Source: a virus
Length of the DNA stretch: 31,117 bases
Virus record (IMG/VR): IMGVR_UViG_3300050035_000717
Span: 1-31,117 of that record
Strand: one strand, 5' to 3'
This document shows, piece after piece, positions 3,222 to 30,090 of the stretch. The position numbers and the translations under genes are program-made. The notes under the pieces were generated by a model. That model was not told where the DNA came from and did no database searches. It saw nothing but the letters and a program-made list of their open reading frames with translations. Numbering within the stretch: position 1 is the stretch's first letter; every line of letters begins with the position of its first letter.

Positions 3222-3971
3222 TCAGGCCGCAATCGCGTCCAGCGCACTGCGCAGCCCGTAGAAATCCAGATGCGTGGGCGATACTGCCGAGGTGTTCAGC
3301 CAGTCGCGGTTGAGCAGCGCGTAGGCTTCCTCGCAATAGCGTTTCCAGAACGCCCACGTCATCCGCTGCACGGTGTTCCATGTGATGCATGCCAGGCCAT
3401 CGGAGTCGTAATCGGTCACCCATACGGCATGACCGCCCCAGGTACCGGGCTCACTGCCGATGTCCCACACAGCCTGGTTCTGGGCGCTGTCAGGAAGGCT
3501 TATCCCGACATAGAGTCCGCCGAAGTTGTAGATAGCCTCCCGTACATCGGCATCGTTGGCCGGTTGCAGGACCGCCCACAGCGTCACGTCTTCGCCCTGC
3601 CGCCCGATGTCCCAGCCGTGTCGCGACCATAGGCCAAGCACGTCGGTCTCGATGGCGCCCGTGTCCGTTTCGGGCTTCCCGGGTTGATAGCTGGACACGG
3701 CGGCATAACGGGCAGCCACTATCTCGTCGGGTACGCGCCAGAGCGCCCCATTGGCCGTGGTCCAGGTCAGGATGGCATTCGCTGACGCTGCAATGGTGCA
3801 GTCGCCGATGGCGTCGTTGAGGTGCATTCCCCATTCGGAGACAATGTCGCTGCGCTTGCACGTAGGCGGCGGCGACGGCAGCGCACGCCGCCGGAAGTCC
3901 GCCAGCTTCGGCACGATCATGCCGGCGTGAGGCGCCCGGCGGCCGAGCTTGACGATGCGATGATCGACCAT
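3222..3971 (-). CDS. Papain-like (C39/C1-type) cysteine peptidase-like phage protein
   Basis: 249-aa protein with the order of catalytic motifs of papain-fold enzymes: Cys58 in NDAIGDCTIAA, His181 in WGGHAVWVTDYD and Asn199 in CITWN, the last followed by a Trp-rich segment (TWAFWKRYCEEAY) as in papain-type SW(G) loops. There is no signal peptide or transmembrane helix. The ATG at 3971 has a GGGGGG stretch just upstream and lies 13 nt after the preceding stop; a longer frame upstream lacks this support. It is the last gene of the leftward phage operon, after the lipoprotein and holin-like genes, so a role in lysis, peptidoglycan cleavage or processing of a particle protein is possible. The substrate cannot be read from the sequence. 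The triad assignment is by motif order only, and this could be a non-catalytic relative. Confidence 0.6.
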   Translation of the reverse strand: MVDHRIVKLGRRAPHAGMIVPKLADFRRRALPSPPPTCKRSDIVSEWGMHLNDAIGDCTIAASANAILTWTTANGALWRVPDEIVAARYAAVSSYQPGKPETDTGAIETDVLGLWSRHGWDIGRQGEDVTLWAVLQPANDADVREAIYNFGGLYVGISLPDSAQNQAVWDIGSEPGTWGGHAVWVTDYDSDGLACITWNTVQRMTWAFWKRYCEEAYALLNRDWLNTSAVSPTHLDFYGLRSALDAIAA

Positions 3972-3984
3972 CGGGCGCCCCCCA

Positions 3985-4455
3985 TTACTTCGCCGCCGCG
4001 GCACGCAGGATCAGCCGCGCCTGCTCGGGGCTGTAAACCGGAGATGTCTTCGTGGCACTGGTGACGCCGGCCGCGGCCAGGATCGTCGGCAGCAACGATA
4101 TCGCCGCATTGATGATCGGCACGATCGCCGATCCGCCGGGAATCAGCGGCAGCGCGATGCCCGCTACCGTCTGCACGGTGGATGCGATCTCCTGCACGAC
4201 GTTGGTGCCGGCCGAAGCCGTGGCCGCGGCCACCTGCCCAGCGTCGGTTTTGATCGTGGCCAGGTAGCCCTGAAGTTGCGTGACAGTGGCGGCCGGCACG
4301 CCGGGGATCGCCGCGATCGCCGTAATCGCGGACGACAGGCCGGACGCGATGAGCTGCACGTCGGTGGCGAGTTGCGAGGAGGTGATCGTGGTGCCGCACG
4401 CGCTCAACGCAACGGCGGCGCCGGCCATGGCAAGGATCGAACGACGGGTCTGCAT
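3985..4455 (-). CDS. Putative phage-encoded lipoprotein
   Basis: 156-aa protein starting with a twin-arginine, hydrophobic signal (QTRRSILAMAGAAVALSAC) ending in an LSAC lipobox, so export and lipid attachment at Cys20 are predicted. The mature part is rich in Ala, Thr and Ile. It has a helical central part and a hydrophobic stretch near residues 95-130 (VAGIALPLIPGGSAIVPIIN and LLPTILAAAGV) that could be membrane-embedded. A GTG at 4467 overlaps the holin stop as GTGA and would add four residues (MTYP); neither start has a clear Shine-Dalgarno. Its position between the holin-like gene and the peptidase suggests a lysis or envelope role. An outer-membrane spanin subunit is conceivable, but the protein is longer and more hydrophobic than typical spanins. 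I do not recognise the family. Confidence 0.62.
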   Translation of the reverse strand: MQTRRSILAMAGAAVALSACGTTITSSQLATDVQLIASGLSSAITAIAAIPGVPAATVTQLQGYLATIKTDAGQVAAATASAGTNVVQEIASTVQTVAGIALPLIPGGSAIVPIINAAISLLPTILAAAGVTSATKTSPVYSPEQARLILRAAAAK

Positions 4456-4463
4456 GGGATATG

Positions 4464-4739
4464 TCACTTTGCTGCGGTTGAACTGGAAGCTGACGTGTTG
4501 GCCATCGCCCTCGCCGTGGCGTCGGCGTAGACCTTCAACGCATCGCCGACCACGGTCTCGGCGTCGGCCCTCAGCGCCGGCTTTTCCGGCCAGGCGATGG
4601 CCAGCACGCCGCCGACGATCAACGGGGCCGCCGTCTGCCAGGCGAGCTGGCCGGATGCCACGGCAACGACGGTGCCAATCAGCGCGGAGAAACCCGCGCC
4701 GGTCGTGGTCTGCCGTAACCAGGAAATGATGGAAGCCAT
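4464..4739 (-). CDS. Holin-like small membrane protein
   Basis: 91-aa protein with two hydrophobic segments, about residues 15-30 (GFSALIGTVVAVASG) and 37-50 (AAPLIVGGVLAIAW), then a polar, alanine-rich C-terminal tail. This is a class II holin-like layout. A strong Shine-Dalgarno (GAGGAGAA, 4745-4752) sits 5 nt before the ATG. The stop overlaps a possible GTG of the lipoprotein gene (GTGA), consistent with translational coupling. With the lysozyme gene nearby and lacking its own export signal, a pore-forming protein is expected in this cassette, and this is one of two candidates (the other is at 6228-6416). Assignment is by topology and position, not by a conserved motif. Confidence 0.6.
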   Translation of the reverse strand: MASIISWLRQTTTGAGFSALIGTVVAVASGQLAWQTAAPLIVGGVLAIAWPEKPALRADAETVVGDALKVYADATARAMANTSASSSTAAK

Positions 4740-4754
4740 TCCGTTCTCCTCAAG

Positions 4755-5687
4755 TTAACCCGCTAGCGTGTTGGCATCCTCGTCGCGCTGGCGGAAATAG
4801 GCATCGATGTCGCGCCGCAGCTCCGGTTTGTTGCCCGCCAGCTCCAGCACGCCCCAGACGTTGGGTTTCAGATCGGTCGTAGGGTCGAAGCGATGGCGGG
4901 ACAGGATTTGCCAACGATCAACGTAGGCCCGGCGATCCTTCGCGCCGTGCCAGGCGTGCTCGATGGTGCCTGGCACGTAACCAAGATTGCCGCCAATGTG
5001 CTGCTGTGCACGTGCCTGCCAGCGCAACAGCGGTGCACGGTAGCCCTCGGGGAGGTTGCCCGGGATGGAGTCCACCACCCGACCGATCAAGGCCAGCGCC
5101 ATGTGGTGATCCGCCGCGCCGAGCACAGCGGTGTCGATCAGACCGCCGAGCCAATCCAGCGCCTGCCGCGTCGCCGCCCAGGCGTAGCCAGGATGGGCAA
5201 ACTGGTAGGCACTGACGGCATTCGGCCCCTGCACGAACGGTTTGCGCTCCAGCCACAGCCGGCAGAAACTGCGGTGCGCGATTAGATGATCGTCATTCGG
5301 GCCGAGATCGTAGCAGTCGCTCCACGGCTGCACCACGTCGTAGAGCTGCAAGGCATGCACCGTCTCCGCAGCCCAGTCGGGCTTGCGGAAGCGGATGTCC
5401 GCATCGAGCCACGCGACGTATTTCCAGTCCTCCGGCAGCCGCGCGAGACCGATGTTGAGCAAGTTCTCCTTGTTCCACACCAAAGTACGGGCGCGTACCG
5501 GTACGTGGTTCACGCCCGGTGTGCCGCCGAGTTCGTGCGGCCGGTCACCATAGGCGCATTCCACCACCGTCAGGTGCACGCCGCTTTCCAGCATGTGTCG
5601 CTCGAATTCGCGATAGAGGCGCACGCGGCTTTCCCAGCGGATCGGGTTGGCGACGGCGGTAACGACGTGCAGCAAATCGGCGCGCAT
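4755..5687 (-). CDS. GT-A fold glycosyltransferase-like protein
   Basis: 310-aa protein with features of family 2-like or galactosyltransferase-like glycosyltransferases. There is an N-terminal nucleotide-sugar-binding Rossmann-like part (HVVTAVANPIRWESR near residues 7-21), then WNKENLLNIGL at 71-81 and a metal-binding DxD motif, Asp95-Ala-Asp97, in YVAWLDADIRF. Towards the C-terminus the segment IEHAWHGAKDRRAYVDRW matches the H-x-x-HG-x4-R-x-Y-x-x-R pattern common in beta-galactosyltransferase-like enzymes. The ATG at 5687 has GGAAG about 7 nt upstream; the frame continues upstream without a convincing start. It lies between lysozyme and holin genes, in the same direction. Possible roles are modification of host surface polysaccharide (receptor masking) or glycosylation of a fibre. 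No signal or membrane anchor is seen. Confidence 0.72.
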   Translation of the reverse strand: MRADLLHVVTAVANPIRWESRVRLYREFERHMLESGVHLTVVECAYGDRPHELGGTPGVNHVPVRARTLVWNKENLLNIGLARLPEDWKYVAWLDADIRFRKPDWAAETVHALQLYDVVQPWSDCYDLGPNDDHLIAHRSFCRLWLERKPFVQGPNAVSAYQFAHPGYAWAATRQALDWLGGLIDTAVLGAADHHMALALIGRVVDSIPGNLPEGYRAPLLRWQARAQQHIGGNLGYVPGTIEHAWHGAKDRRAYVDRWQILSRHRFDPTTDLKPNVWGVLELAGNKPELRRDIDAYFRQRDEDANTLAG

Positions 5688-5742
5688 TCTCAAACTTCCA
5701 CACTCCTGATGGTTGTTGGCTGACAAGGCCACATTGAACCGC

Positions 5743-6231
5743 TCACGCGTCTTTCCCGGATTTCTCGTCAGACTCAAGAAAGAGCGCCGTCTCTGCCTGA
5801 CGCCGACGCAACAGACCGGCGACGACCTTGCCGCCCGCGTGATCCCACAGGTCAATCTGCGCGGCGGCGCCGGCGTAGTCTCCAGAGTTCAACTTACGTA
5901 GGAGTGTGCTGTTGTCGAACGCGCCAATGCCGACATTGTAGATGAAGTCCTGCAGCGCCGCGGTTTCGTCCACTGTCAGCCAGACTTTTACCACGCGGGC
6001 AATTTCGCGCGCAGTTTTGTGCAATTCATCAGCCAGCCAGATGCGCGCGAGCTGAAGCGTTATCGGTGGCGTATTCTCCGTCACCGGTGCACCATCCGGC
6101 AGCCAGACCGACCCGTAGCCAATCGTCCAGCGCGGCGGCTTCGCCAGCATGTCAAGATATGGCTCGGCCGAAAAGCCCTCGAATCTGGCTGCCAGTTCCG
6201 CGGCTTCCTGATCTGCTGTTTTGCTCATCAT
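5743..6231 (-). CDS. Phage lysozyme (GH24, T4-type muramidase endolysin)
   Basis: 162-aa enzyme with the T4 lysozyme triad in correct spacing: Glu18 (RFEGFS), Asp27 (PYLDML) and Thr36 (RWTIGYG). The downstream NVGIGAFDNSTLLRKLNSGDY and GLLRRRQAE blocks are also characteristic of the family. It hydrolyses the beta-1,4 bond between MurNAc and GlcNAc in peptidoglycan. There is no N-terminal hydrophobic signal-arrest-release segment, so release to the periplasm should depend on a holin. The ATG at 6231 overlaps the stop of the upstream small membrane-protein gene as ATGA; a second ATG follows directly at 6228. A much longer frame upstream has no start support. Key residues are intact, so it is probably active. 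Confidence 0.9.
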   Translation of the reverse strand: MMSKTADQEAAELAARFEGFSAEPYLDMLAKPPRWTIGYGSVWLPDGAPVTENTPPITLQLARIWLADELHKTAREIARVVKVWLTVDETAALQDFIYNVGIGAFDNSTLLRKLNSGDYAGAAAQIDLWDHAGGKVVAGLLRRRQAETALFLESDEKSGKDA

Positions 6232-6416
6232 CGCATTGCCCAGTCCTGATTGATCGCATAGCGCACCAAGCCAGCGAACACGGTGGCCGCGATGCCGCAC
6301 AACACCCAGGAGCCGAGCCGGGCGGTGCAGCGCTTCCATTGTCGGTCGAGCCATTCCGACATGGCTTTTTCCACCGCCTCCTTCAGGAGGTCGGGCGGGA
6401 TTTTGTCGATGGGCAT
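6228..6416 (-). CDS. Small single-pass membrane protein, possible holin or antiholin
   Basis: 62-aa protein starting MPIDKIPPDLLKEAVEKAM, with an amphipathic N-terminal helix and one hydrophobic segment near residues 37-55 (GSWVLCGIAATVFAGLV). The start is fixed by a consensus Shine-Dalgarno GGAGG (6424-6428) 7 nt upstream of the ATG; a longer frame without ribosome binding site was ignored. The stop overlaps the lysozyme start (ATGA), indicating coupled translation. It is the first gene after the terminator-like hairpin at 6485-6515, so it begins the lysis cassette. A holin, antiholin or lysis regulator is the natural guess from size and position, but no family motif is recognised. Confidence 0.6.
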   Translation of the reverse strand: MPIDKIPPDLLKEAVEKAMSEWLDRQWKRCTARLGSWVLCGIAATVFAGLVRYAINQDWAMR

Positions 6417-6441
6417 GTGCAATCCTCCAGGCCCGCGGCGG

Positions 6442-6685: not shown

Positions 6686-9600
6686 CTATGGTGTCCCGTT
6701 GAAAGTCAGGGTGCCCTTGGCAACGACATTGCCGCTGACGTCGATGGAGAACAGACGCGTGCTGCCGGTGCCGATGACGACCTTGCCAGTGGCGTCTTCT
6801 TGTACCCAGGTGTTGCCGGCGGCATCCAGTGCGATCTTCTGGCCCTGTGCCGCGCGCAGGGCAATTCCGTCCGCGACGATGGCCGTGTCGGTGCGTATGC
6901 CGTGCAGGAAGTTGCCCGCGGCCTGCAGGGGATTGTTTGGCCAAACAGATTGGTCGGCGGCGGTCGAACCGTAAGCAAGGAACGACCGGCCGTTCGGCGC
7001 AATCGAATCCGGCTCTGCGACGAACCCATTGAGGAAACCGGCACCGTATGCTCCTGGCTTGTAGGTAATCGCGGATGTGAGCGTGACGCCGAATATCGCA
7101 AGTGGTGTACCTAGTGTGTTCTGCAACGTAAGTGTACCGCCGGCCGTGTTGCGGATCACCACGGAGGTATCGCCGACGCCTCGCACGTAAGCGGTGACTA
7201 TCTTCGGCGCCGACGTTAGCGACGCCACCGTACTGGTGTTCGGGCTCCACCAGCCGGCCGCCGTCAGAGCATTGCACACACAGCCGACGATATCCTGCGC
7301 CGTTCCGCCACCGGCGACAGTGAGCGAAACCGCGCTTCCGGCCGCGGTCGTAGTTTGCGACAGGCCGACCGACGTGCCACGCACATAGGTTACGACCGTA
7401 CCTCCGGGAATGCCCGGCCCACTGATCGAGACGCCGCCGGAACCGGAACCCGCCACACCCGCCGGCACGGCACTCAAGACGGCAGCGTTCTGTCCACTGC
7501 CGTATGTCGCCGATACGGTGAAGCCGGCCAGGGCAACTGTCACGGGTCCGTAGCTGGTCCCTGAGAGGTCGGTCGCGGCGACCGTGAACGCACTGCCCGC
7601 CGACTGTGCGGTGGCGCCGAATTCGCCGTAGGCTGTAGCCAACGCATGCGGTGGAGCCGGCGGCAGATATACGCCCGCCGTCAGATTCAAGCGCGCCAGG
7701 GAACCCGCAACAACGTCCGCGATCTGTAGCCCACCCGCGGCGATTCCTCCGTTCGGCGCCGGGGCACATGGGTTTGGCAATACCTGTGCCATCAGCACGA
7801 GCCGCCCGCCAGCGTTGGTGTCCGCCGTCACGCCGGGAATAGCGGCCGCATTGATCGCGCTTGCAACCGCCGCCATGGTGCCACTGATCGGAATCGTGAC
7901 GCCATTGACGGCGATCTCGTCGCCCGAGGAAGCGGTTCCGACGGCCGTGGAGATCACCACCGCCGTGGCGTCACGAAGCGTACTGTAGGTACCGGGCGAA
8001 ATCCCCAGGGTCGCCATCGGGCAACCGACGCCATCGTTGATGGTGAGTACGCCGAGATCGTTCGGGGCAATGCTGAACAGCACCAGCCGCTGATCGGTGC
8101 CATAGGTATTGACCATGGCACGTACGTAAGGAATGGCCTTGGCATTGATCGCCGCCGCCACCGAGGCGATGTCGCCGTGTGCACCGTCGGGATTGAGCGT
8201 GACCGATACGGGTGTAGCACCGGGCACACCGCCGCCGGATATAGTCACCGACGGTGGCGAACTGGCGGAATAACCGCTACCGGGGTTGGCAACGACGAGA
8301 CCTGTCAGAAAGCCGTTGCTGATGACCGCGGTTGCGCTCGCTTGCTGACCGCTGTTCGGCGCTGCGATGGTGACAGTGGGAGCCGAGGTATAGAGCCCGG
8401 CGCCGCCGCTGCTGACCGTCACACCGACGATCTGGCCGCCGCTGACGTTCGCCGACGCCTTAGCGGTCACATCCAGTGTGATGGTGACCGTGGCGTTCTG
8501 CGTGACCGTTGCGCTCGTGTTGTCGCCGAACGCCGCCGGATAGCTAATGGCTCGCCGGTTGACCTGCCCTGTGCCGGACTCGCCGTTGTAGCCGCCAGCG
8601 ATACTGAAGCCATTGAACACATGGCCGCCATGGACCATGATCGTGTTCTGCGTCTCGTCTGCCTGCAACCCGTTCATCGCCCAGGCTGCTAGCGCGTGGC
8701 CCTGTGTCGCGATGCTGTTGCCCGCCGTAACATCCCAGCCCGCGTCGGCCGTGAGGCTCACGAGGTCGCTTTCGCCGACCTTGATATCGGTGCTCAGGTT
8801 ACCGCGCGAGGCGGCATCTTCATCAATCGCCGGGCCCTGGATAACGTCAAGAAATTTCCAGCCAGCGCTTCCGTCATAGAAACGATTCCAGATGAGGCTG
8901 TCGTAATGGAACGGCTCGATCCCGTTCCGGTACTTTCCATAGTACAAGCTATTGGTATAATTAGTCATCTTGCCGCTGCGCGCGGCGTTGCTGTTTGCTG
9001 AGTTATTTTCGATCGTGCAGGAACTAAAGGGAATATCCGCGCACGCCGAACCGAGCACCGGGCCAAGTCCGCAGAAGTTTTGGCCTCCCATTACGGTCGT
9101 GTCATATCCGGCATATGTCGCATAGGCCACGTCCGCCACAATGCTGGCGCCGCCGGTAAGTACAGCACCGTTCTCGAGTCGTACGGACACCGTCCGTCCG
9201 GGAGCGGCAACGCTGGAGAGCCATTGCGTGGCTAGTTGGTAGGTGCCTCGGGGCAACACGATCTCACCGAAGCCACCCGAAGGAACCGACTGCGCCGCGG
9301 CTTCGAGCGCAGGGGTGATGTCACCGTGTCCCGTCGGGTCGGCCCCGAAGTCCAGAATGTTGATACGGTCCGCCGCACGTTCGGCTAGCGTACGCGACGT
9401 CGTGCCGTCGGCTGCAACGACGGCGGCAGCCGAGGCATCCTGCCCAGCGAACGTAGCAACGTATTTCTGACCAATAACCCACGCCTCCGTCGCATAGTTG
9501 GCGGGATTGTTGGCGTCGTACGGCGTGTAGCCCAACGCGGTCGCCACATCCGCAGCGGCCAACGCCGCGCCCGAGGTCACCAGCCCTTTGGCATTGATTG

Positions 9601-10060
9601 TAACTTTCTCGAACGTGCCTGGCGCGGTGATCGCCCGCAAAGTTGCCTGGATGTTCGTATTGCCGGAGCCGCTCACATCGCCTGTCAACGTCAGCGATCG
9701 ACCGGAAGTCATCACGAACTCTGTGGTAGCCAACTGGTTACTGGAATCGTTGACCTCCGGCGTCGGCGCGGTCGGTGTGCCGCTGAAGGCCGGCGATGCC
9801 AACGGCGCCATCACCGACATGTCGGCTTGCAGGGCACCCACTGAAAGTTGCACCCCGGGACCGATACCAACCGCCTCGGGCCCTCCGACCAGTGGGCTCA
9901 CGCGGCCCAGGAGGCTGCCGCTGGCAAGCGTCAAGGCCGGCTGAGTGCTGCCTAGCAGCTGTGCGATCGTCGCGGTGACGCTGACGCCATTCTGATCAAG
10001 CAGAATCTGATCCGTCGAATTGACGGCCGTAGCCTCTGGCAGCTGCGCAACGGTCGGCAT
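6686..10060 (-). CDS. Large tailspike/tail fibre protein (1124 aa)
   Basis: Long modular adhesin at the distal end of the tail genes. The N-terminal ~90 residues (PTVAQLPEATAVNSTDQIL, then SGSLLGRVSP-GG-PE) resemble the same region of the next tailspike and probably attach it to the particle. Residues ~90-200 hold fibre-type motifs (PLASPAFSGTPTAPTPEV, then ATALGYTPYDANNPANYAT). At about 240-290, INILDFGADPTGHGD starts a pectate-lyase-3/beta-helix tailspike domain. Near 550-605 are two GSGY-type beta modules. Near 615-661 and 713-757 are two flagellin-IN-like modules. The C-terminus (GTGSTRLFSIDVSGNVVAKG) is a typical fibre tip. The start ATG at 10060 has GAGGA 4 nt upstream, and MPT matches the sister tailspike. 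Likely role: binding and possibly degrading host surface polysaccharide. Confidence 0.82.
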   Translation of the reverse strand: MPTVAQLPEATAVNSTDQILLDQNGVSVTATIAQLLGSTQPALTLASGSLLGRVSPLVGGPEAVGIGPGVQLSVGALQADMSVMAPLASPAFSGTPTAPTPEVNDSSNQLATTEFVMTSGRSLTLTGDVSGSGNTNIQATLRAITAPGTFEKVTINAKGLVTSGAALAAADVATALGYTPYDANNPANYATEAWVIGQKYVATFAGQDASAAAVVAADGTTSRTLAERAADRINILDFGADPTGHGDITPALEAAAQSVPSGGFGEIVLPRGTYQLATQWLSSVAAPGRTVSVRLENGAVLTGGASIVADVAYATYAGYDTTVMGGQNFCGLGPVLGSACADIPFSSCTIENNSANSNAARSGKMTNYTNSLYYGKYRNGIEPFHYDSLIWNRFYDGSAGWKFLDVIQGPAIDEDAASRGNLSTDIKVGESDLVSLTADAGWDVTAGNSIATQGHALAAWAMNGLQADETQNTIMVHGGHVFNGFSIAGGYNGESGTGQVNRRAISYPAAFGDNTSATVTQNATVTITLDVTAKASANVSGGQIVGVTVSSGGAGLYTSAPTVTIAAPNSGQQASATAVISNGFLTGLVVANPGSGYSASSPPSVTISGGGVPGATPVSVTLNPDGAHGDIASVAAAINAKAIPYVRAMVNTYGTDQRLVLFSIAPNDLGVLTINDGVGCPMATLGISPGTYSTLRDATAVVISTAVGTASSGDEIAVNGVTIPISGTMAAVASAINAAAIPGVTADTNAGGRLVLMAQVLPNPCAPAPNGGIAAGGLQIADVVAGSLARLNLTAGVYLPPAPPHALATAYGEFGATAQSAGSAFTVAATDLSGTSYGPVTVALAGFTVSATYGSGQNAAVLSAVPAGVAGSGSGGVSISGPGIPGGTVVTYVRGTSVGLSQTTTAAGSAVSLTVAGGGTAQDIVGCVCNALTAAGWWSPNTSTVASLTSAPKIVTAYVRGVGDTSVVIRNTAGGTLTLQNTLGTPLAIFGVTLTSAITYKPGAYGAGFLNGFVAEPDSIAPNGRSFLAYGSTAADQSVWPNNPLQAAGNFLHGIRTDTAIVADGIALRAAQGQKIALDAAGNTWVQEDATGKVVIGTGSTRLFSIDVSGNVVAKGTLTFNGTP

Positions 10061-10078
10061 GAAGTCCTCATACAGACA

Positions 10079-10106
10079 GATCGGCCCCGCCATGGTCCGG
10101 CCGATC
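10079..10106. repeat. Inverted repeat between the two tailspike genes
   Basis: A perfect 8-bp inverted repeat (GATCGGCC / GGCCGATC) with a 12-nt loop lies in the 139-bp gap between the two tailspike genes, just upstream of the ribosome binding site of the left one. It has no T-rich tail in either direction. It may be an mRNA structure or a recombination footprint. Nothing else is seen in this gap. Confidence 0.4.
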
Positions 10107-12485: not shown

Positions 12486-12974
12486 TCAGCTCCCCAGCAG
12501 AATCGGATCGCCGTTCTGGTCAGTGATCACGGCACCCGCCTGTGTGGTGAGCGCCGCGTCCTCGGAACTTGTCACGCCGGCAAGCGACCGCACGGGCAGC
12601 AACACGGTCCGTCCGATCAATCGGCCGTTGGCGGTACCAACGGCAACCTGAACGGAATAGGTCGTGCCAGCCACGCCGCCGGAGAACCAGACCACCGCCA
12701 CGGTTCCATCGGCCGCCATATTGCCGGCCGTGAGACCGCCACTGGTGCTCGGCCTCACCGTGACGTCGATGCTCGTGATCGTGTCGTCGCGAGTACCGGC
12801 CAGCGCCTCCGAGATGTCCAGCTCATAGTCCAGGACATCGCTGGGGTCCTTTGCCGGCCACGCCAGGCGCGACGGCGGTAGCGGAACGACGCCGCGCGGA
12901 ACCGGAAAGAAGCCATCGAGCACCACGCGGCGCGCGACCGAGGGCCGCCAGACGGCGGTGGCAGGGGTGGACAT
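12486..12974 (-). CDS. Phage fibre-tail adaptor-like protein
   Basis: 162-aa beta-rich protein. The central stretch (SEALAGTRDDTITSIDVTV, then TAGNMAADGTVAVVWFSGG and TYSVQVAVGTANGRLIGRTV) is the pattern I associate with small phage fibre-tail adaptor proteins found directly before tail fibres. It probably links the tailspikes to the baseplate. The ATG at 12974 has GGGAG about 10 nt upstream. The stop is 3 nt before the 760-aa tailspike start, so translation is likely coupled. Confidence 0.6.
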   Translation of the reverse strand: MSTPATAVWRPSVARRVVLDGFFPVPRGVVPLPPSRLAWPAKDPSDVLDYELDISEALAGTRDDTITSIDVTVRPSTSGGLTAGNMAADGTVAVVWFSGGVAGTTYSVQVAVGTANGRLIGRTVLLPVRSLAGVTSSEDAALTTQAGAVITDQNGDPILLGS

Positions 12975-14543: not shown

Positions 14544-14584
14544 CGAAGTCCCTTGGTTCGCTGAGATTCTGAAACGGGTTCGGA

Positions 14585-18585: not shown

Positions 18586-18590
18586 GATTC

Positions 18591-21147: not shown

Positions 21148-21575
21148 CAGACGCGCAGCCGCTGGCTGGCGAAAAATTCCAACCGTTGCTTCACGCTGGC
21201 GTCTCCCCTCCAGGTTCCGGCCTGCGTCAGTTTGAACACGACGTTGCTATACTGGTAGGTCGAGGTCGATCCATCCGGCTCCGCCACGTACTGGTAAAGC
21301 GTACCGGCACCCACGTTCTGGCCGTTGATGAAGTTGGCCTCCATCGAGGCGATAAAGTCATCCACGGTAGAGTCACCGCGCTCCAACTCAAAGTATCCCT
21401 CCCAGCCCTTCGGCAACTCGGCGCCGAGCGCCACGCCGTCGATACAATCGACCCTGACCGGCGCGGTAAGCTGGCGGCTCTCGAATCCTGTTACATACGT
21501 CAGGTCGATGCGGCCCGTCGGCGCCATCACGACCAGTGAGCAGTCGCGACCGATGGAAAACGTGTTGGCAGGCAC
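21147..21575 (-). CDS. Tail tube protein
   Basis: 142-aa beta-rich protein just downstream of the sheath gene, the invariant position of the tail tube. It begins (M)PANTFSIGRDCSLVVMAPTG and includes TAPVRVDCIDGVALGAELPK, GYFELERGDSTVDDFIASME and YQYSNVVFKLTQAGTWRGDA, consistent with the hexameric tube fold. The GTG at 21575 is preceded by GGAGGG with a 6-nt gap. A TTG two codons earlier touches the ribosome binding site and is less likely. Confidence 0.85.
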   Translation of the reverse strand: MPANTFSIGRDCSLVVMAPTGRIDLTYVTGFESRQLTAPVRVDCIDGVALGAELPKGWEGYFELERGDSTVDDFIASMEANFINGQNVGAGTLYQYVAEPDGSTSTYQYSNVVFKLTQAGTWRGDASVKQRLEFFASQRLRV

Positions 21576-21587
21576 TGGCAACCCTCC

Positions 21588-23153
21588 TTACGATGCGGCC
21601 ACGCCGGTGGGCAGAACCTGACTCTGCACCTGTACCGTCTGTCCGCCCTCGATGTTGACGATGAACTTCTCGTTGATTGCCTGATACTGAATCTGCGCGT
21701 CCGATTGCACGTATCCCAGCCCGGTGCGGCTCGGCGGATTGTTGGATGTATCGCAGATCACGCTGAACGGCAGGCTTCCGTCAACACTTCCCAGCAACCC
21801 CTGTGACAACATGTTTTGCAGGAAGCTCAGCTGCGTGGCGCGGATTTTTCGGAACAAGCTGGCATTGACAACCTGCCCGACATACGCCCCCATCCCGGAG
21901 GCCAGCGTCGCGGCGATATAGTTGGTCAGCCGGGTATAGTTGTCGCCATTGGTGCCCGAGTTGGACGAGGTGTTGTGCCCGCCCCGCACGCCCCAGTAGG
22001 ACCCGCCCGGCTGTGGGTTGCTGATCACATCGATGCCCGCCTGCAGCAACACCGAGAGTTCGGCCGCGGAATAGCTGGTGCTCTGGCTGCTGGAAGGCGT
22101 GCCCGACATCTGACTGCCGACAACGCCATAGATCTGCTTGTTCAGGCTGCTCTGCTCGGGGCTCAGATTGGCAAGCCTGCCGGCGACGAAACCCTGTGGA
22201 CTCACCACCCGCGTGACAGCGTTGACCTGGTCATTCCACCAGATCCAGTCGCCGAACATCAGCTTGCAGGCGTAGCAGTCGAGCCCGGCCGACATCTTCG
22301 TTGCCACCGCGCTGGTAATGCCGTCGCCAGCCGGGCCAGTCAGGATCATGTAGATACCTTCGGCCAGCCCGAACTCGGCCTGCACGGTCCACTGCGACGC
22401 ATCATCCCCATCCGCCAGCACGCCGATGCCGCAGCCCTGGCTCCGCAAGGCATACATGCCGGTGCGAGGAATGGTGTCGACCCCGACCAGGTTCACCGCC
22501 GTCACGCTGGCAGCACCGTCCGTACCCTGCGGGCCTGTTGCGAACGGCCAACTGAACGCGACGGGCGTCGTTGAACTGCCACCGGCATTCGCCACGACGA
22601 TCTGGCTGGCACCCCGCTGCACGCCCTGGCCATTGTTCACAGCGTTGGCGAGTGCTGCCCAGAAGGCGGCGCCGGTCCCGCCGATGTTGTCGAACACCTC
22701 CGGCGCCAATCCCGGCAGCGACACGGTTAGCCGCCACGTGTTGGCTTGGCTGCCGGTAGCCAGAGTTACCGTTATGCTGTTGCCGACGCTGCCAGAGTAA
22801 AGTGCCGTGAACAGAAAGTTCGTGTTCGGCACGCTGAACTGAGCGGCGGTGTCGGTACCGTCAGTGACACGTACGCACCGAAAGTTCTGGGCACCCTGCT
22901 GGATCGCGGTCGCCACCTGCGTTCCCATGTCGTACTTGCGCGCGATGATCGGGCCGAAGTTGGCCGCGTAATCTGCCATCGTCGCGACGATCACCGGCTG
23001 TCCGACGGGTCCCCAACTCGCGCTGCCGACGACTCCCACCACGTCGGTCGGAACGCCATTCAACAGAAGGTTCTGCGGCGGCACGATCTGCACATACAGA
23101 TCGGGAACAACCAGCGCCGTGGTATTGATGCTGCCTTGCTGGACAATGGGCAT
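21588..23153 (-). CDS. Tail sheath protein
   Basis: 521-aa contractile sheath subunit. The N-terminal domain carries VPDLYVQIVPPQ and the hallmark GVPTDVVGVVGSASWGPVGQ with MADYAANFG. The C-terminal domain carries PGGSYWGVRGGHNTSS, TNGDNYTRLTNYIAATLASG and SQGLLGSVDGSLPFSVICDT, blocks typical of phage sheath proteins. This gene shows that the particle has a contractile (myovirus-type) tail. The ATG at 23153 has GGGAG 8 nt upstream. Length is normal and no break is seen, so contraction competence is plausible. Confidence 0.93.
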   Translation of the reverse strand: MPIVQQGSINTTALVVPDLYVQIVPPQNLLLNGVPTDVVGVVGSASWGPVGQPVIVATMADYAANFGPIIARKYDMGTQVATAIQQGAQNFRCVRVTDGTDTAAQFSVPNTNFLFTALYSGSVGNSITVTLATGSQANTWRLTVSLPGLAPEVFDNIGGTGAAFWAALANAVNNGQGVQRGASQIVVANAGGSSTTPVAFSWPFATGPQGTDGAASVTAVNLVGVDTIPRTGMYALRSQGCGIGVLADGDDASQWTVQAEFGLAEGIYMILTGPAGDGITSAVATKMSAGLDCYACKLMFGDWIWWNDQVNAVTRVVSPQGFVAGRLANLSPEQSSLNKQIYGVVGSQMSGTPSSSQSTSYSAAELSVLLQAGIDVISNPQPGGSYWGVRGGHNTSSNSGTNGDNYTRLTNYIAATLASGMGAYVGQVVNASLFRKIRATQLSFLQNMLSQGLLGSVDGSLPFSVICDTSNNPPSRTGLGYVQSDAQIQYQAINEKFIVNIEGGQTVQVQSQVLPTGVAAS

Positions 23154-23334: not shown

Positions 23335-24165
23335 TCAGACCATGCGGTTCGCAATGGCGTCGGCGCCAGCCGACGAAAGCTGAATTTCTCCCACGACCAT
23401 CCGTGGCTGGTTCGCTGTAACGAGCGTGGGATATTCGACGGTGTAGATCAGGTCGCGGCGAAACAGTGCCGCGCTTTCGCTGCGGTCGGTCACCTCTGAT
23501 GCGGCGAAGCGCAACCGTCCACTGCTGCCGTCCGGCAGCGCCAGGAACGTGGTTGCTGCCAACGTCGTATCGATCGCTACCGCGACGCGGTCGCGGCTAT
23601 CCGGGTCAGGGCTCCAGCAGGTAACGCGGAATCGCTGCTTTTGCCGCTTCACTTCCCGTCGTACGGATTGATCGGCGAATACGCGCCCCTCCAGGCGACG
23701 CACCAGCGGCACGACCACTGTGGTTCCCTGCAGCAGTGCCGTGCGCACCGTCCGAAGTTGCGCCGCGAGTATCGCTGCCACCATCGCCGGCGTATCGCCT
23801 GTCTGCGTACGATGAACCACCGCCAGCCCGTCCGCGATCAGACCCGCGATCTGCCCGGGCGCCGCATCGCCAGCGAACGTCGCTGTATTCCCCGATACGG
23901 TCACCACAAGGGTCGGCCTCTGCGGCACGTCGACCTGGGTATCATCCAGCCAACGCGTCGTGTTTTCCTGCGCTGCGGATTCGGGATAGATCGTCACGTT
24001 GACCACCCCGGCCGCGAGGTCGGCATCCAACGCCGCCGCCCCCGGCCATCCGCGATAAACGCGCACCGTGCCGCCAGTCACGCTTGGCTGTACAGTGCCG
24101 TCCGGATACAGCGCCTGTGCAATGGTCTGTACCAGCGATGCTTCCACGTCTGATTGATCGGCCAT
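23335..24165 (-). CDS. Tail terminator/tail completion-like protein
   Basis: 276-aa protein between the neck genes and the sheath, the usual place for the tail terminator that caps tube and sheath. Features include MADQSDVEASLVQTIAQALY, VRVYRGWPGAAALDADLAAG and NVTIYP, a pattern I recall from phage minor tail proteins of this kind, and a C-terminal half with QRFRVTCWSPDPDSRDRVAV and RRDLIYTVEYPTL. The ATG at 24165 overlaps the previous stop (TGATG). Longer than P2-type terminators (~150 aa). Role inferred from position and general pattern. Confidence 0.55.
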   Translation of the reverse strand: MADQSDVEASLVQTIAQALYPDGTVQPSVTGGTVRVYRGWPGAAALDADLAAGVVNVTIYPESAAQENTTRWLDDTQVDVPQRPTLVVTVSGNTATFAGDAAPGQIAGLIADGLAVVHRTQTGDTPAMVAAILAAQLRTVRTALLQGTTVVVPLVRRLEGRVFADQSVRREVKRQKQRFRVTCWSPDPDSRDRVAVAIDTTLAATTFLALPDGSSGRLRFAASEVTDRSESAALFRRDLIYTVEYPTLVTANQPRMVVGEIQLSSAGADAIANRMV

Positions 24166-24803
24166 CAGTTTTCTGCCTGTTTAACCGTCAGCCGCCAGCC
24201 AAGCGCGGAAAGGTCCGCCGTCGTAACCACACCGCTTCGTCCGAGATCGTCCTCCAGCAAATCGCCCGCGCGCAGGGCGGGGATCGGCGCCAGCGGCAGC
24301 CAAACCGACCACCTCGCCAATCCCGCGTCGGCCGGCAGGTCGGTCCGACCTACTGTTTCACCCGGAGTCACGACACTGACCGGCCAACGCGTCAGTAGCG
24401 GAATAGCGTCGCGCCGCAGCACGCCGCCGTAGCCGTTGACCCCGGCCGCCGCCGGTGCACCTGGCCGCCTGATGCTCACCACGCGGTTGCCGCAGATACA
24501 CAGCACCGGCTGAAATGGCTCCTGCGCGATAACGAAGAAGCGGTAATCTCCATTGCTGAGATAGTCGCCCGGGCGTGTGTAGGCCGCATCGAACACCCCC
24601 TGCCACACCCGGTGTCCGTGGCTGACGTCCTGGGTCTCGCGCTGCGGCAGAAAGCTTGCGGGCAGACGAAGAAAGCGATTCGCGGAGTCAAGCGGATCGG
24701 TGGCGCCCCGCGGCCGGTAGGCGTCACACCAGGCGCCCAGGCCACGCGCAGCCACCCCGAGGCCGCGGTGCAGCGCGTCCTGGATCCGGTCCGACCGCGT
24801 CAT
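24165..24803 (-). CDS. Head-tail joining/neck-region protein
   Basis: 212-aa protein overlapping the connector gene upstream (ATGA at 24800-24803) and the terminator-like gene downstream (TGATG). Features are MTRSDRIQDALHRGLGVAAR, then YRPRGATDPLDSANRFLRLP, VWQGVFDAAYTRPGDYLSNG-DYRFFVIAQEPFQPVLCICG, a beta-rich middle, and LRAGDLLEDDLGRSGVVTTA. The YTRPGDYL-GD-YFFVI-type segment fits a head-tail joining or minor head protein that I cannot name more precisely. A longer frame to 24866 is not supported. Confidence 0.55.
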   Translation of the reverse strand: MTRSDRIQDALHRGLGVAARGLGAWCDAYRPRGATDPLDSANRFLRLPASFLPQRETQDVSHGHRVWQGVFDAAYTRPGDYLSNGDYRFFVIAQEPFQPVLCICGNRVVSIRRPGAPAAAGVNGYGGVLRRDAIPLLTRWPVSVVTPGETVGRTDLPADAGLARWSVWLPLAPIPALRAGDLLEDDLGRSGVVTTADLSALGWRLTVKQAEN

Positions 24804-25177
24804 ACTATCACCCTCACTCCCCCGTCGCCCAACTCGGGCCCGGGCGGCAGACCGAGAAAGCCGCACAGCCGCCGCCGCCAGTCATCGAACAAGTGCATCC
24901 GCTCACCCACTTCGCCGGCATTGCGCGTCCATACGGCAGCGCGCTCGGTGTCGAGGTTTACCGCCGCTTCTGGAATTGCTCTTTCCAGCACTCCAAGAGT
25001 GGCGAGATACTGCCGGACGACCGCCTCCTCGGAACCGCTCAGGTGCTGCAGGCGGAACTCCATCAGGCCGTACACCTGGTAGAACCGCCAACCCTGAAAT
25101 CCGGAAGTGCCGGAGCCGTATGCCGGATATCCGCAATACCGTCGCACGTCCGTGCGCTCGGCTTCCGAGAACGCCAT
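24800..25177 (-). CDS. Head-tail connector (adaptor)-like protein
   Basis: 125-aa helical protein directly downstream of the major capsid gene. It begins MAFSEAERTDVRRYCGYPAY and continues with YQVYGLMEFRLQHLSGSEEA, a pattern typical of small gp6-like portal adaptors at this position. The ATG at 25177 has AGGAG 7 nt upstream. The last codons overlap the next gene (ATGA). It is expected to attach below the portal. Family identification is by position and general character. Confidence 0.6.
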   Translation of the reverse strand: MAFSEAERTDVRRYCGYPAYGSGTSGFQGWRFYQVYGLMEFRLQHLSGSEEAVVRQYLATLGVLERAIPEAAVNLDTERAAVWTRNAGEVGERMHLFDDWRRRLCGFLGLPPGPELGDGGVRVIV

Positions 25178-25310: not shown

Positions 25311-26633
25311 TCAGCCGATGTGCTCGATCATCACCGCCCGTTTGAATGCGGAATTGGTGGCGGTCGGTATCGTCGTCGGATTGGTTGTCACGTCGCTCGG
25401 CGTGCAGAAACCGCCGATCCAGTACCAGCTCTGGGCGATGATCTGCTGCAACCGGTCGATCGGCTCGCGCGTCACCATGCACACGCCGTCCACCAGCGAC
25501 ACGATCGCGTCCTTCGGCGCCACGTCGGCCTCCGCCATGCCTTCGAAGTCACCTTCGATCAGCGCGCCCTGGCCACAGATAATGGGACGACGGATGACCG
25601 CGCCGCTGATGGTGGGGTGCGGCTGCACATACGCTTCGTTGGTCGGCACAAAGCGCAGGCCGAGGAAGTCGTTCACCATGCCGCGCTTGAACACCTGGTT
25701 GGCCGAGGTCGCGCCGAAGAACAACTGACGGAAATCATTGTCCGCGAACAACTGGCGGGACGAAATCGGATCGAGGTAGCAGTTGTACGCCCCGTCGATC
25801 TCCGGCACCGCATTCAGTCGCAGCGTCGCCACGGCGTTCAGCAGCGTCCCCATGGTCAGCGTGTCCGCTGCCTGCAACAGCGCGGTGTTGGCTTCGTTGT
25901 TGGGCCGCGCGATGGCACTGGCGGTCGCCGCGGTCACCGTGTTGCCAGCGGCACCGTCCGCAACGGAAACCGAGGAGCCGAACGTCAACACACCGGAAAT
26001 CCCGCCCGGCGCGGTGGAAACGTTGTTTAGGTCCACGCTGACGCCCACCAGCGTGTAGGCGTTGCTGCCCACGGTAACTGTCAGGTCGGCGGCCGCTCCG
26101 ACGGAGGTCTGCACGCCGTTCACGAATACGGTCTGGAAGCCGCGCACGTCGTCCACGGGCAGCGCCGGGCCGGCCACGGTAAGGCTGCTGCGCAAACGGG
26201 TGTTGCCGCCGAAATACGCCGCGAACAGCGCGTTACGCGCCAGCTCGTCCAGGCTGCGCGCCGCCTGTTCGCCGTTGATGGCCGCATTCAGCAGGAACTG
26301 GCTGGCGATCCCTACCCTGCTCGTGACCATATTCAGGTCGGTGGTGGCGGCGTAGCTGTTCAGCGTGATCGTGTACTGCTCGACGCTGAAGGACTGCGGC
26401 GTAAGCCCGTTGTCGAGGTTGGTGTTGGTGGCCGGCGCCAGCGGCGTCGTCACGGACGGCTTGAGCCCGGCGCGCGTCTTGGTCAGCGTCTCGCCGATGC
26501 CCACCGCAAACATTTCGCGGTCGGCGCAGGCACGGTAGCCCAGCCGGCTGTTCAGCGCCTGCTGGAACTCACGTTCCAAGAAGCCCTGCTGGATGACCGG
26601 CTGTAGTGCGAGTGGAAAGTTCTGAATGCCCAT
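25311..26633 (-). CDS. Major capsid protein (HK97-fold, probable)
   Basis: 440-aa protein after a scaffold-like gene, the canonical capsid position. The N-terminus (MGIQNFPLALQPVIQQGFLE, then FQQALNSRLGYRACADREMF) and the long central section with SYAATTDLNMVTSRVGIASQ suit a P22/N4-gp56-like HK97-fold coat. Residues ~165-245 (VNGVQTSVGAAADLTVTVGS, VDLNNVSTAPGGISGVLTFG) look like an inserted beta domain. The C-terminal half has NCYLDPISSRQLFADNDFRQ and VNDFLGLRFVPTNEAYVQP, typical coat-protein spine and P-domain segments. The ATG at 26633 has GAGGG 5 nt upstream. No protease gene accompanies it, consistent with a coat that is not cleaved. Confidence 0.82.
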   Translation of the reverse strand: MGIQNFPLALQPVIQQGFLEREFQQALNSRLGYRACADREMFAVGIGETLTKTRAGLKPSVTTPLAPATNTNLDNGLTPQSFSVEQYTITLNSYAATTDLNMVTSRVGIASQFLLNAAINGEQAARSLDELARNALFAAYFGGNTRLRSSLTVAGPALPVDDVRGFQTVFVNGVQTSVGAAADLTVTVGSNAYTLVGVSVDLNNVSTAPGGISGVLTFGSSVSVADGAAGNTVTAATASAIARPNNEANTALLQAADTLTMGTLLNAVATLRLNAVPEIDGAYNCYLDPISSRQLFADNDFRQLFFGATSANQVFKRGMVNDFLGLRFVPTNEAYVQPHPTISGAVIRRPIICGQGALIEGDFEGMAEADVAPKDAIVSLVDGVCMVTREPIDRLQQIIAQSWYWIGGFCTPSDVTTNPTTIPTATNSAFKRAVMIEHIG

Positions 26634-26777: not shown

Positions 26778-27158
26778 TTATCGCCGTTTCAGCAGATCGG
26801 CCCGTGCCGACCGCCATTCTTCGTAACTCATCTGCGTAGCCAGCTTGGCGCTCGGCGGGCGCGAAGGCGGCGGCGCGGCCGAGGAAGAGGAGGACGCCCC
26901 CCCGAACAGCCACGGCTTCGATCGTCGCAACTGCATCATCAGTGCGGCGCCGCCTTCCAACTCGCCCGCTTCATTCAAACTCACCGTGCCGGCGTCGATC
27001 AGCTTCAGCCCGTCAAGATCCACCATGCCGGCCCGTACGGCCTCGGCTTTCAACTCGGCGTGGATCAGGCGGGTCTGATTCTGGGCCTCTACCTCGGCCA
27101 GCCTGAGTTCCAGCGCCGCTGCCCGCTCGGCGGCATCCTCGGTGGTTGCGTCGGTCAT
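26778..27158 (-). CDS. Scaffolding-like protein
   Basis: 126-aa protein between portal and capsid. An N-terminal charged helix with heptad character (AERAAALELRLAEVEAQNQT) leads to AVRAGMVDLDGLKLIDAGTV, a motif common in small phage scaffolds (a -AG-DLD-LKL-D- region). A low-complexity Ser/Ala/Pro linker follows, then a basic C-terminus (MSYEEWRSARADLLKRR) suited to binding the inner capsid. The ATG at 27158 has GGAG about 7 nt upstream; a GTG four codons earlier is less likely. The 144-bp gap to the capsid gene holds an 11-bp direct repeat (CTTCGTCCGCG) but no gene. Confidence 0.68.
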   Translation of the reverse strand: MTDATTEDAAERAAALELRLAEVEAQNQTRLIHAELKAEAVRAGMVDLDGLKLIDAGTVSLNEAGELEGGAALMMQLRRSKPWLFGGASSSSSAAPPPSRPPSAKLATQMSYEEWRSARADLLKRR

Positions 27159-27184
27159 GCACGTCTCCACTCAAACGATAAGCG

Positions 27185-27210
27185 AGCCGACCCCCAATGC
27201 AGGGTCGGCT
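27185..27210. other. Perfect stem-loop between portal and scaffold genes
   Basis: A 9-bp perfect stem (AGCCGACCC / GGGTCGGCT) with an 8-nt loop lies about 45 nt after the portal stop and 27 nt before the scaffold ATG. On the minus strand it is followed by CGCTTATCG, not a T-run; on the plus strand TTTG follows. It may be a processing site or attenuator setting portal versus scaffold/capsid levels. Confidence 0.45.
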
Positions 27211-27255
27211 TTGTGGCAATCGACAAATTGTCTGGATGTTCGGCTGCGGGTCGGA

Positions 27256-28686
27256 CTAGCTGGTCTGTCGTGACTCGTCGCCATGGCCGACGGCCGCCAA
27301 CGTGGCACTTTCCGCCGCAATGCGTGCCAGCTCGGTCGGGACCGCGTCAATTCCGTACACGTCGGCAATCGACTTCACGGCCGTCTCGCGCGAGATGAAC
27401 CCGCTCGACTGCAGTACGCGCAGACTATTCGCATCACGCTGACGATCCTCGGCCGTAGGAGCATACCAGCGCGGCCAGATCAGGCTTAGTCGCGCCTGCG
27501 GCAACGGCGTCACCGTGTCGCCACGCACACGCAAGGCAAACAGCTCCGAGGCACGCAGAACCATGCGAGCCAACTTCAGCAGTCCGTCGCCGTAACTCAC
27601 TCGCAGATTGTCGGCCAGCCAGATCAGGCCCTGGTTCATCATCTCCAGCGCCCGTCCGCTCTGCGCGGTCGTCAGACGATCGGCCGAAGCACGGTTGCCA
27701 TGCACGCCTTCGAGCGCGAACTCGCGCAACGCGCGCACGTACTCGATCACTGCGGCGGACGCCGTACCATTGATTTCGAGCAGCTTGGCATCACCCTTCT
27801 CGCTTACCACCAAGGCGTTGCCGCCGCCGCGAATGATTTCGCCATCGGCGCTCGCCGGCTCGCGGATGAGCAAGGTGGGGTCGGATGAATACTTCAGGCC
27901 GCGCCCCGCCTGCGAAAGCTGGTAGTCGATCTCGATGTTGGTTTCCAGCGCGGGACGGAAAGTGCATGCGCCGTCGATGTCGTCGCCGCCTGGGAGATTG
28001 CGAATCCACACCATCGGCACGAATCCCATGCCGTGGCGGACGCTGCGCGCTTCGTCCACCTCCGGCGCGGCGCCGGAGCCAACGGGCCACGGCCGGAACC
28101 ATGTCTCGGCCTGATCGTCCCATTGGCGCATGAACCAGTACTGCGCCTGCGTGTCGGCGACATCGTAGCCCTGCGCGACGAGATCCGCGCCAGGAACCTT
28201 GTAGCGTTCGGTCACCAGCAGCAGGCTATCCGGAGCTTGCGGGTCCCATTGCGGCGTCAGGAACTGCGTCTGCAGAACGCGAAAGAACACGCGTCCCCGC
28301 AACACGCGCAGCAGCACCGCGACCGACCCGACGCTGCCGCGCAGCGCCGCCTCCAGCATCGCCTGCTTGCCGGCGCCCTCCTGCACGATGTCTGCCAATG
28401 TCGTGCGTACGCGCGCATCGGCGCAGTCGATGGTCGGAAAATGCCCCTCACTGAACATCAGCGACAGACTGTCGTCCACGATGATGCGTGCCAACGGGTA
28501 GCGTACCGACGGACGGCGCTGGCGCAGCGGAATGTATTCGCCTCCGGCGCCGCGTTCCTCGTGAAATTCGTACGGCAGTGCCTCATACAGGCGGCCTTCC
28601 AGCACGCGCGTCAGAATGTCCAGTCGCCGCGTCCGCTCCGGGTAGTCAGGATCGGCCGGGATCAGACCGCAGATCGTGTCGAACAT
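27256..28686 (-). CDS. Portal protein (Gp6-like)
   Basis: 476-aa portal subunit, the dodecameric DNA channel of the head. Typical features are the N-terminal region with ERTRRLDILTRVLEGRLYEA, the wing segment RYPLARIIVDDSLSLMF, NIEIDYQLSQAGRGLKYSSD and the clip/stem region GVHGNRASADRLTTAQSGRA-LEMMNQGLIWLADNLR, all usual in SPP1 gp6-like portals. The ATG at 28686 has GGGAG 5 nt upstream; an ATG five codons earlier is not supported. It lies 36 nt after terL and before the scaffold gene. No break is seen. Confidence 0.88.
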   Translation of the reverse strand: MFDTICGLIPADPDYPERTRRLDILTRVLEGRLYEALPYEFHEERGAGGEYIPLRQRRPSVRYPLARIIVDDSLSLMFSEGHFPTIDCADARVRTTLADIVQEGAGKQAMLEAALRGSVGSVAVLLRVLRGRVFFRVLQTQFLTPQWDPQAPDSLLLVTERYKVPGADLVAQGYDVADTQAQYWFMRQWDDQAETWFRPWPVGSGAAPEVDEARSVRHGMGFVPMVWIRNLPGGDDIDGACTFRPALETNIEIDYQLSQAGRGLKYSSDPTLLIREPASADGEIIRGGGNALVVSEKGDAKLLEINGTASAAVIEYVRALREFALEGVHGNRASADRLTTAQSGRALEMMNQGLIWLADNLRVSYGDGLLKLARMVLRASELFALRVRGDTVTPLPQARLSLIWPRWYAPTAEDRQRDANSLRVLQSSGFISRETAVKSIADVYGIDAVPTELARIAAESATLAAVGHGDESRQTS

Positions 28687-28722
28687 CGGTGCTCCCTGCA
28701 TCGTCGTAGCCAGGCCGCGGCG

Positions 28723-30090
28723 TCATCTCGCCATCACCGGCACGAACACCCGCCGCGCCGGCGCCGCGGCCTCGCTCAGCATGGTGAAGGCGCGGGCGAG
28801 CGCGTCGACCTGGTCGTCCTTGCGCCCTTGCGGAAAGTCGCGTAGTTCGTCGAGGAACGCGCGGTTCCAGCGCGCCCGCAGCAGCGCTAGGTTGCCGGCG
28901 TCCACCTGCGAGGCCACCGGCCCGGCGCGGGTCAGCTTCGATCCGCTTTCCGGCCCTGCCGCCACGCGGAATCCAGCCAGCCGCCCGGTCAGCCACGCCA
29001 CTTGCTGCTTGCCCGCCTGCCCCGGGTCCTGCGGCAGGCCGATGGGCACGCCGTGGCCATCCGCCCGCGCCGTGGCAACAATCGCCGCCTCCACTTCATG
29101 CGGGCCACCGCGCAGCCGCACGATGTCGAGCACGATGAATTGGCCGCTATCGTTGCGCGCCAGCTTCAGCCCCACCGTCCAGTCCGGGTCACGCCCGCGG
29201 CCGACGGCGGTCGCCGCCAAATCCCATGCACGTACCGTCCGCGTTACGTCAGGCACCGCATCGAGCAGCCCGACGCGACCCGTCTGGAACAGCAGTCCGT
29301 CAACCGGCTGCGGGTTCTGCTGATACAGTGCGCTCCACACGCGCGGGCCTACCGCCAGCCGCTTGCGTGCCAGCGCCGCCGCGTCCTCCCACTCCGGCCA
29401 CAGCGGCGCGCCCGCCGGACGGCCCAGCGGATCGTTCGCCTCGGCCAGCGCCGGCAGGCGGATCACCCGCCATGATGCCTCATCGGTCGCCAGCAGCCGC
29501 CCGCCCAGGTCGTCCTCGTGCCAGCGCGTCATCACCAGCACGACCCGACCGCCGGGCTTCAGCCGGGTCAGCAACTCGCTCTGCCACCAGTCCCACAGGC
29601 CGTCGCGCAGCGTCGCGCTGTCTGCCTCGGCATGGCTCTTGATCGGGTCGTCCACCAATACGAGGTCCGCCCGCCGGCCGGTAATCGGCCCACGCACGCC
29701 AGCGGCGAAATACTGTCCCCCTGCCGTCGTGGAAAAGCGGCCCGCCGCTCGGTCGTCGCGCGTCAGGCCATAACCCAGCACATCGGCGTGCTCGCCCACC
29801 AACCGGCGCACGCGGCGACCGAAGTGCCAGGCAAGAGCCTCGGTATGGCATGCGACGATCACCGCGCTCGTCGGATGGCGCAGAAACCACCAGGGCGGAA
29901 AGATCACGCTGGCATAGGTGCTCTTGGCGCTGCCCGGCGGCATCAGCAGCATCAGCCGGTCGCAGCCTCCCTCGGCCAGCCCGGTCAGGTCTTTCAGTAT
30001 CTCCAGATGGTGGCGTGCCGGCACCTGTCCGGACGGAGCCAGCACCGTCCTGGCCCAATCCTGCAACGTCGGCGCCATTGGCACCCCCAT
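28723..30090 (-). CDS. terL: Terminase large subunit
   Basis: 455-aa packaging motor with both domains. The ATPase has Walker A PPGSAKST at 51-58, Walker B LVLVDDP at 143-149, and the coupling-type motif VMTRWHEDDLGGRLL. The nuclease has the first catalytic Asp in RAWDLAAT (about residue 290) and acidic residues Asp425, Asp426 and Asp429 in KDDQVDALARAF. All key residues are present, so packaging looks possible. No small terminase is seen next to it. Two starts compete. The ATG at 30090 begins right after a terminator-like hairpin and has no Shine-Dalgarno. The ATG at 30078 (APTLQDWARTV) has GGGGG 5 nt upstream. It is the first gene of the leftward block. Confidence 0.93.
   Translation of the reverse strand: MGVPMAPTLQDWARTVLAPSGQVPARHHLEILKDLTGLAEGGCDRLMLLMPPGSAKSTYASVIFPPWWFLRHPTSAVIVACHTEALAWHFGRRVRRLVGEHADVLGYGLTRDDRAAGRFSTTAGGQYFAAGVRGPITGRRADLVLVDDPIKSHAEADSATLRDGLWDWWQSELLTRLKPGGRVVLVMTRWHEDDLGGRLLATDEASWRVIRLPALAEANDPLGRPAGAPLWPEWEDAAALARKRLAVGPRVWSALYQQNPQPVDGLLFQTGRVGLLDAVPDVTRTVRAWDLAATAVGRGRDPDWTVGLKLARNDSGQFIVLDIVRLRGGPHEVEAAIVATARADGHGVPIGLPQDPGQAGKQQVAWLTGRLAGFRVAAGPESGSKLTRAGPVASQVDAGNLALLRARWNRAFLDELRDFPQGRKDDQVDALARAFTMLSEAAAPARRVFVPVMAR

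Follow-up and report, generated by a model that had tools for sequence, protein, structure and literature searches.

Type I alphaproteobacterial gene transfer agents (GTAs), the Rhodogtaviriformidae with RcGTA and CcGTA, consist of late genes only, occupy a fixed chromosomal locus, are inherited vertically under purifying selection and are controlled by an Xre/CI-type repressor together with dedicated activators that can be unlinked from the cluster (RogA, GafY, GafZ). In the Caulobacter GTA, RogA is the repressor of gafYZ, with GafZ acting as an antiterminator (PMC9632790, PMC11150451). Recognised GTA particles with described tails have non-contractile ones (classification paper PMC9662315), and our search of the open-access literature turned up neither a GTA in Acetobacteraceae nor a contractile one. 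PBSX and the PBSX-like defective prophages of Bacillus, by description, combine a contractile tail with an Xre repressor, lysis genes and a conserved site, and for their core region no integrase is reported; PBSX and its homologue in B. pumilus carry packaged host DNA of 13 and 9 kb, and both kill relatives (PMC8347963). Within Acetobacteraceae, the available sections of a 2025 paper on the Sphagnum core virome describe phage-like contigs, assigned to temperate or degraded prophage, that have no integrase or repressor, a gpVWJ baseplate, flanking metabolic genes and matches in Acetobacteraceae genomes, and report no analysis of locus, tree or selection (PMC12142844).

We analysed a DNA stretch of 31,117 bp (the window), which is an excised IMG/VR virus record. 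Its ends are therefore a software choice, and as the abutment of host genes cannot be judged from the window alone we used relatives with long contigs. Positions 3222-30090 hold one uninterrupted late module on the minus strand in which every late gene is open, beginning with TerL (28723-30090) and closing with the gene that ends at 3222, in agreement with the intact one-strand module of the original prediction. It encodes TerL, portal, scaffold-like protein, capsid, three neck proteins, sheath, tube, chaperone and a short tape, and then hub, spike, baseplate W, J and I proteins, fibres, endolysin and small lysis and accessory proteins. The host gene dnaE2 ends at 3177, leaving a gap of 44 bp to the module, and rlpA starts at 30548, beyond the terL end. 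No tRNA gene was found in the window, and no exact direct repeat of at least 10 bp joins the two module edges in it. The features are as follows.

1-3177, plus: host dnaE2, error-prone DNA polymerase, flank (ORF of 1058 aa)
3222-4004, minus: accessory protein, possibly C1-peptidase-like (label by eye only; phrog_19005; same-end homologues in G140 and G067)
3985-4467, minus: small lipoprotein-like gene (ORF)
4464-4739, minus: holin-like small membrane protein (inferred from size and position)
4755-5690, minus: protein of ~311 aa, perhaps glycosyltransferase-like (no Pfam/PHROG match; 70% identical protein in the decayed Acidisoma cluster L024)
5743-6264, minus: endolysin (phrog_7, E 1.6e-40)
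6686-10093, minus: tail fibre/spike 1 (weak tail PHROG matches; homologue in relatives)
10200-12482, minus: tail fibre/spike 2 (weak tail PHROG matches; 755 aa conserved in relatives)
12486-12974, minus: fibre-tail adaptor, Gp77-like (PF23148, E 3.3e-24)
12993-13259, minus: small accessory protein (conserved in G056 and G006)
13296-14555, minus: tail fibre/collar fibre (phrog_863, E 4.3e-32)
14585-15247, minus: baseplate gpI-like (phrog_26379, phrog_7378)
15329-16453, minus: baseplate J-like wedge (phrog_6, E 3.7e-49)
16450-16824, minus: baseplate gpW-like wedge (phrog_120)
16828-17355, minus: tail spike/gpV-like baseplate assembly (phrog_6142)
17355-18440, minus: baseplate hub (phrog_52, E 2.9e-20)
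18427-18594, minus: tail X-like protein, LysM-like (ORF; conserved in all relatives)
18591-19286, minus: gp43-like protein adjoining the tape gene (phrog_21362, E 1e-43)
19351-20355, minus: short tape measure, ~334 aa, proline-rich (from its position between chaperone and gp43; 250-440 aa in relatives)
20343-20648, minus: small ORF overlapping the tape start
20800-21147, minus: tail assembly chaperone-like (phrog_20383; position)
21147-21581, minus: tail tube (phrog_12993, E 7.2e-39; position after sheath)
21588-23153, minus: contractile tail sheath (phrog_23, E 2.8e-43)
23335-24165, minus: neck/tail terminator (phrog_13532, E 5.6e-72; role from position)
24165-24812, minus: neck/head-completion protein (phrog_14605; role from position)
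24800-25177, minus: head-tail connector (phrog_14539; role from position)
25311-26633, minus: major capsid protein (phrog_1357, E 5.9e-32; 71-82% identity in relatives)
26778-27170, minus: scaffold-like protein (PF06810, E 3.9e-07, just below the family cut-off)
27256-28701, minus: portal (phrog_145, phrog_64)
28723-30090, minus: large terminase, TerL (phrog_38, E 2.1e-95)
30548-31117, plus: host rlpA, flank (PF03330 DPBB_1; divergent neighbour of terL in many genomes)

The cluster derives from a phage. Phages phiKX1 and phiKX2 of Komagataeibacter share a collinear portal-to-baseplate module with it at 25-52% protein identity, but they are complete 53 kb phages that carry early genes (a complete early region in phiKX1), their own, different TerL together with a TerS and a tape of 742 aa, and have no fixed locus. 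Cousins of the cluster in other genomes of the family show capsid identities of 44-59%, and variable prophage copies of the same family are present in G007, G061 and G053b.

A collinear cluster of ~27 kb was found in many Acetobacteraceae. Scanning prokaryote genomes with TerL yielded 25 loci, nearly all in Acetobacteraceae or 'Rhodospirillales' MAGs, and a strong TerL match (E ≤ 1e-140, tallied by hand) is present in about 95 of the 299 sampled Acetobacteraceae genomes, with stops in none and as a single copy in about 92. More than one strong match occurs in G003, G230 and G159; the extra copies of G003 may be assembly or binning artefacts, as this genome includes a palindromic contig. The contig CAIYCW010000145.1 (L005/L006), a perfect-looking palindrome that carries the cluster twice, is probably an assembly artefact. 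In a class-wide sample a capsid of more than 70% identity was detected in one of 385 genomes, which is the reference carrier. The module was recovered in 17 of the 20 fetched regions: it is full length in 14, divergent and interrupted in G146, and cut by contig ends in G082 and G187. The other three (G160, G281, G126; L054-L056, L072-L074) are different, prophage-like clusters at similar positions in related small genomes, with TerL (46-51% identity) as the only common feature.

Several carriers depart from the common layout. In G249 (L046/L064), G181 (L047/L065) and G218 (L045/L063) a second sheath-like gene of ~640 aa follows the fibre genes, alongside the normal sheath gene of ~515 aa, and in G156 (L069) the cluster end is interrupted by two identical IS256-type (Transposase_mut) elements. 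Acidisoma sp. L85 (L024/L144) holds a decaying copy in which the capsid gene continues into what is left of the sheath gene and the sheath-to-baseplate genes are deleted, with TerL, portal and the regulatory set retained; the trait is thus dispensable there. The version in G146 (L052/L070) is divergent and expanded by many inserted genes, has an L1-type TerL with a TerS next to it, and could be near the ancestral phage form.

The location of the cluster is fixed within clades, at rlpA, at dnaE2 or between groESL and ppk-hda-purM. The gene rlpA divergently adjoins terL in at least 14 of the 25 first loci, at a TerL identity of only 60-68%; in the window, G056 and G003b the cluster is followed by dnaE2; four genomes carry it between groEL-groES and ppk-hda-perM-purM; and others have rlpA or a different set of shared flanks. 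Conservation beside rlpA and/or dnaE2 in related genomes thus bears out the proposed domestication. Host genes at both ends, which the window edges alone leave undecided, were likewise confirmed in several long contigs of relatives, where core host genes lie on both sides with only IS elements and small accessory genes in between besides the cluster.

A tree of seven concatenated element proteins (2089 columns, 21 genomes) was compared with the host rpoB tree. The element follows its host, with 13 of 18 splits in common (shuffled labels: mean 0.18, maximum 3) and a Mantel r of 0.80, and every host split with a support of at least 97 is recovered. The five conflicting splits are mostly deep, with weak support on the host side of most and element support of up to 99%, so that occasional transfer or tree error remains for these. 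For the element we obtained median dN/dS values of 0.15-0.21 in three species pairs, demonstrating strong purifying selection, with dS values (0.78, 0.85, 0.98) close to those of flanking host genes (0.63, 0.76, 0.95). TerL is intact and constrained, with a dN/dS of 0.065 (G249/G181).

We also searched for missing phage functions by a complete Pfam and PHROG census of unassigned ORFs between the host flanks in five to six relatives and of the accessory genes of the window. It returned IS transposases, a spanin, a phosphoesterase, a sulfotransferase and the host gene usg, and no integrase, recombinase or replication protein; the matches listed for 12 carriers include no tyrosine integrase (E<5e-19) closer than ~45 kb to the cluster. 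The integrase module that might have lain just outside the window was thus not found in relatives. A TerS profile built from cousin clusters detected TerS beside TerL in 11 of 14 cousin clusters, and in the fixed clusters of the window's lineage it gave no match, its only hit there being G146, which has no typical fixed cluster; TerS is divergent, and the profile could miss one. The claim that all packaging genes are intact is therefore too strong, as TerL is present and no small terminase is recognisable. We rejected the short tape as a mark of domestication since several mobile cousins also have tape regions of 1.1-1.8 kb.

The supposed lack of any early module holds for integrase, replication genes and flanking repeats, but not for regulation, as relatives carry a regulatory set of an Xre repressor/regulator, a GcrA-like protein and a DUF6362 protein. 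In some carriers this set lies directly upstream of rlpA/terL, and in others it is found elsewhere in the genome yet still together, with Xre absent in the groESL clade; in about 10 genomes the regulators are unlinked from the structural genes, and even then GcrA-like and often Xre are kept with DUF6362. DUF6362 is present in 24 of 24 carriers versus eight of 48 family genomes without a strong TerL match, one of which (G070) carries the element capsid. That DUF6362 is the TerS found no support, its AlphaFold model (pLDDT 80) having no significant PDB match; the weak top of the PDB list (sigma region 4, AlpA, Q21 antitermination factors) provides a lead only. The arrangement recalls the RogA/gafYZ logic by analogy, with no homology claimed.

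Thus, the cluster combines general properties of GTAs: a tailed-phage origin with retention of structural and packaging genes, lack of autonomous replication and integration functions, and vertical co-evolution with the host under purifying selection. GTAs by definition also package random host DNA, never fitting their whole gene set, and pass it to recipients; the lack of a cousin-like TerS and the unlinked regulators of about 10 genomes bear on this packaging only indirectly. The marks of an active temperate prophage, i.e. integrase, att sites and variable location, are missing. It differs from Rhodogtaviriformidae in its contractile rather than siphovirus-like tail (sheath, W, J and spike genes), in its regulators, which by the families identified here are DUF6362 and GcrA-like proteins and not GafA, and in its restriction to Acetobacteraceae. 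The type I GTA family TIGR02218 scored above the cut-off in none of 24 carriers, the Caulobacter control being positive. The Sphagnum contigs are, from their description in the available sections, probably members of the window's lineage.

The intact module, fixed loci, tree congruence, matched dS, low dN/dS, kept regulators, missing integrase and replication genes and the lack of a recognisable TerS make it very probable that the cluster is a domesticated, vertically inherited contractile particle. As our main reading we propose, with a probability of roughly 0.6, a domesticated contractile late operon that is a chromosomal trait of a large part of Acetobacteraceae and most likely a GTA, the latter part by analogy. 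In the proposed mechanism the Xre repressor, acting over the GcrA-like and DUF6362 proteins, would activate the structural operon in a small number of cells. Working without a sequence-specific small terminase, TerL would load heads with host DNA, presumably at random; holin and endolysin would lyse the producer cell; and sheath contraction would inject the DNA into relatives. Head capacity may exceed the 27 kb of the cluster, since a 53 kb phage has a related capsid.

The main rival is a domesticated PBSX-like particle that packages random host DNA and uses its contractile tail as a bacteriocin to kill competing relatives. Two things speak for it: PBSX and its B. pumilus homologue, which do both, likewise have a contractile tail, an Xre repressor, a lysis module and a conserved locus (PMC8347963), and the fibres of the cluster are large, as would suit a host-range device. 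The hosts of PBSX-like elements are Gram-positive, unlike those of the cluster. However, the cluster has no recognisable toxin or immunity gene, TerL, portal and capsid are under strong selection and would not be needed by a pure killer, and the fibres, rather than being hypervariable, stay conserved along 755 aa even in distant species. We consider this rival rather unlikely. Alternatively, a vertically kept cluster might serve lysis, vesicle release or anti-phage interference with packaging genes retained for assembly only; phage-derived lysis can serve other roles and the cluster has lysis genes, but TerL is intact and constrained even though empty heads would assemble without it, rendering this use improbable. 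The cluster could also be part of an ordinary temperate or defective prophage, with its early module beyond the ends of the excised record, as the phiKX1 likeness and the variable prophage copies would allow; this is already largely refuted and most improbable given the core host flanks, the same sites across divergent species, the congruent trees, the host-like dS and low dN/dS and the missing tyrosine integrase.

We return to the GTA reading, according to which the cluster is probably, by analogy, a tamed particle moving bacterial DNA between cells. A second lineage may parallel it. Six cousins share one site beside an RND efflux operon, four of them also a cytochrome c/GMC oxidoreductase flank, and group into a single clade (98%) that mobile copies separate from the window's lineage. 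These contractile late clusters, with their own TerS and TerL, are L172/L153 (G053), L155/L173 (G059), L158/L174 (G014) and L147-L152 (G030, G042, G027); their carriers appear from the flanking genes to be acetic acid bacteria. The RND-site cluster is possibly a second domesticated particle, domestication on two separate occasions being the simplest reading. Descent of both fixed lineages from one single-host phage is unsupported, as their positions in the tree differ and mobile prophages are placed in that tree as well. To the wider proposal, a contractile GTA without shared descent with RcGTA, heritable in much of Acetobacteraceae, and at least two domesticated contractile phages with the second at the RND-efflux locus, we give even odds.

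If this is true, a contractile GTA arose separately in another alphaproteobacterial family, perhaps twice, and would offer an independent test of why bacteria keep GTAs, showing which phage features invariably disappear (integrase, replication, small terminase) and which invariably persist (the repressor-activator switch, lysis). Many 'viral' contigs of acid soils, peat and plant microbiomes would then be host traits counted as viruses.
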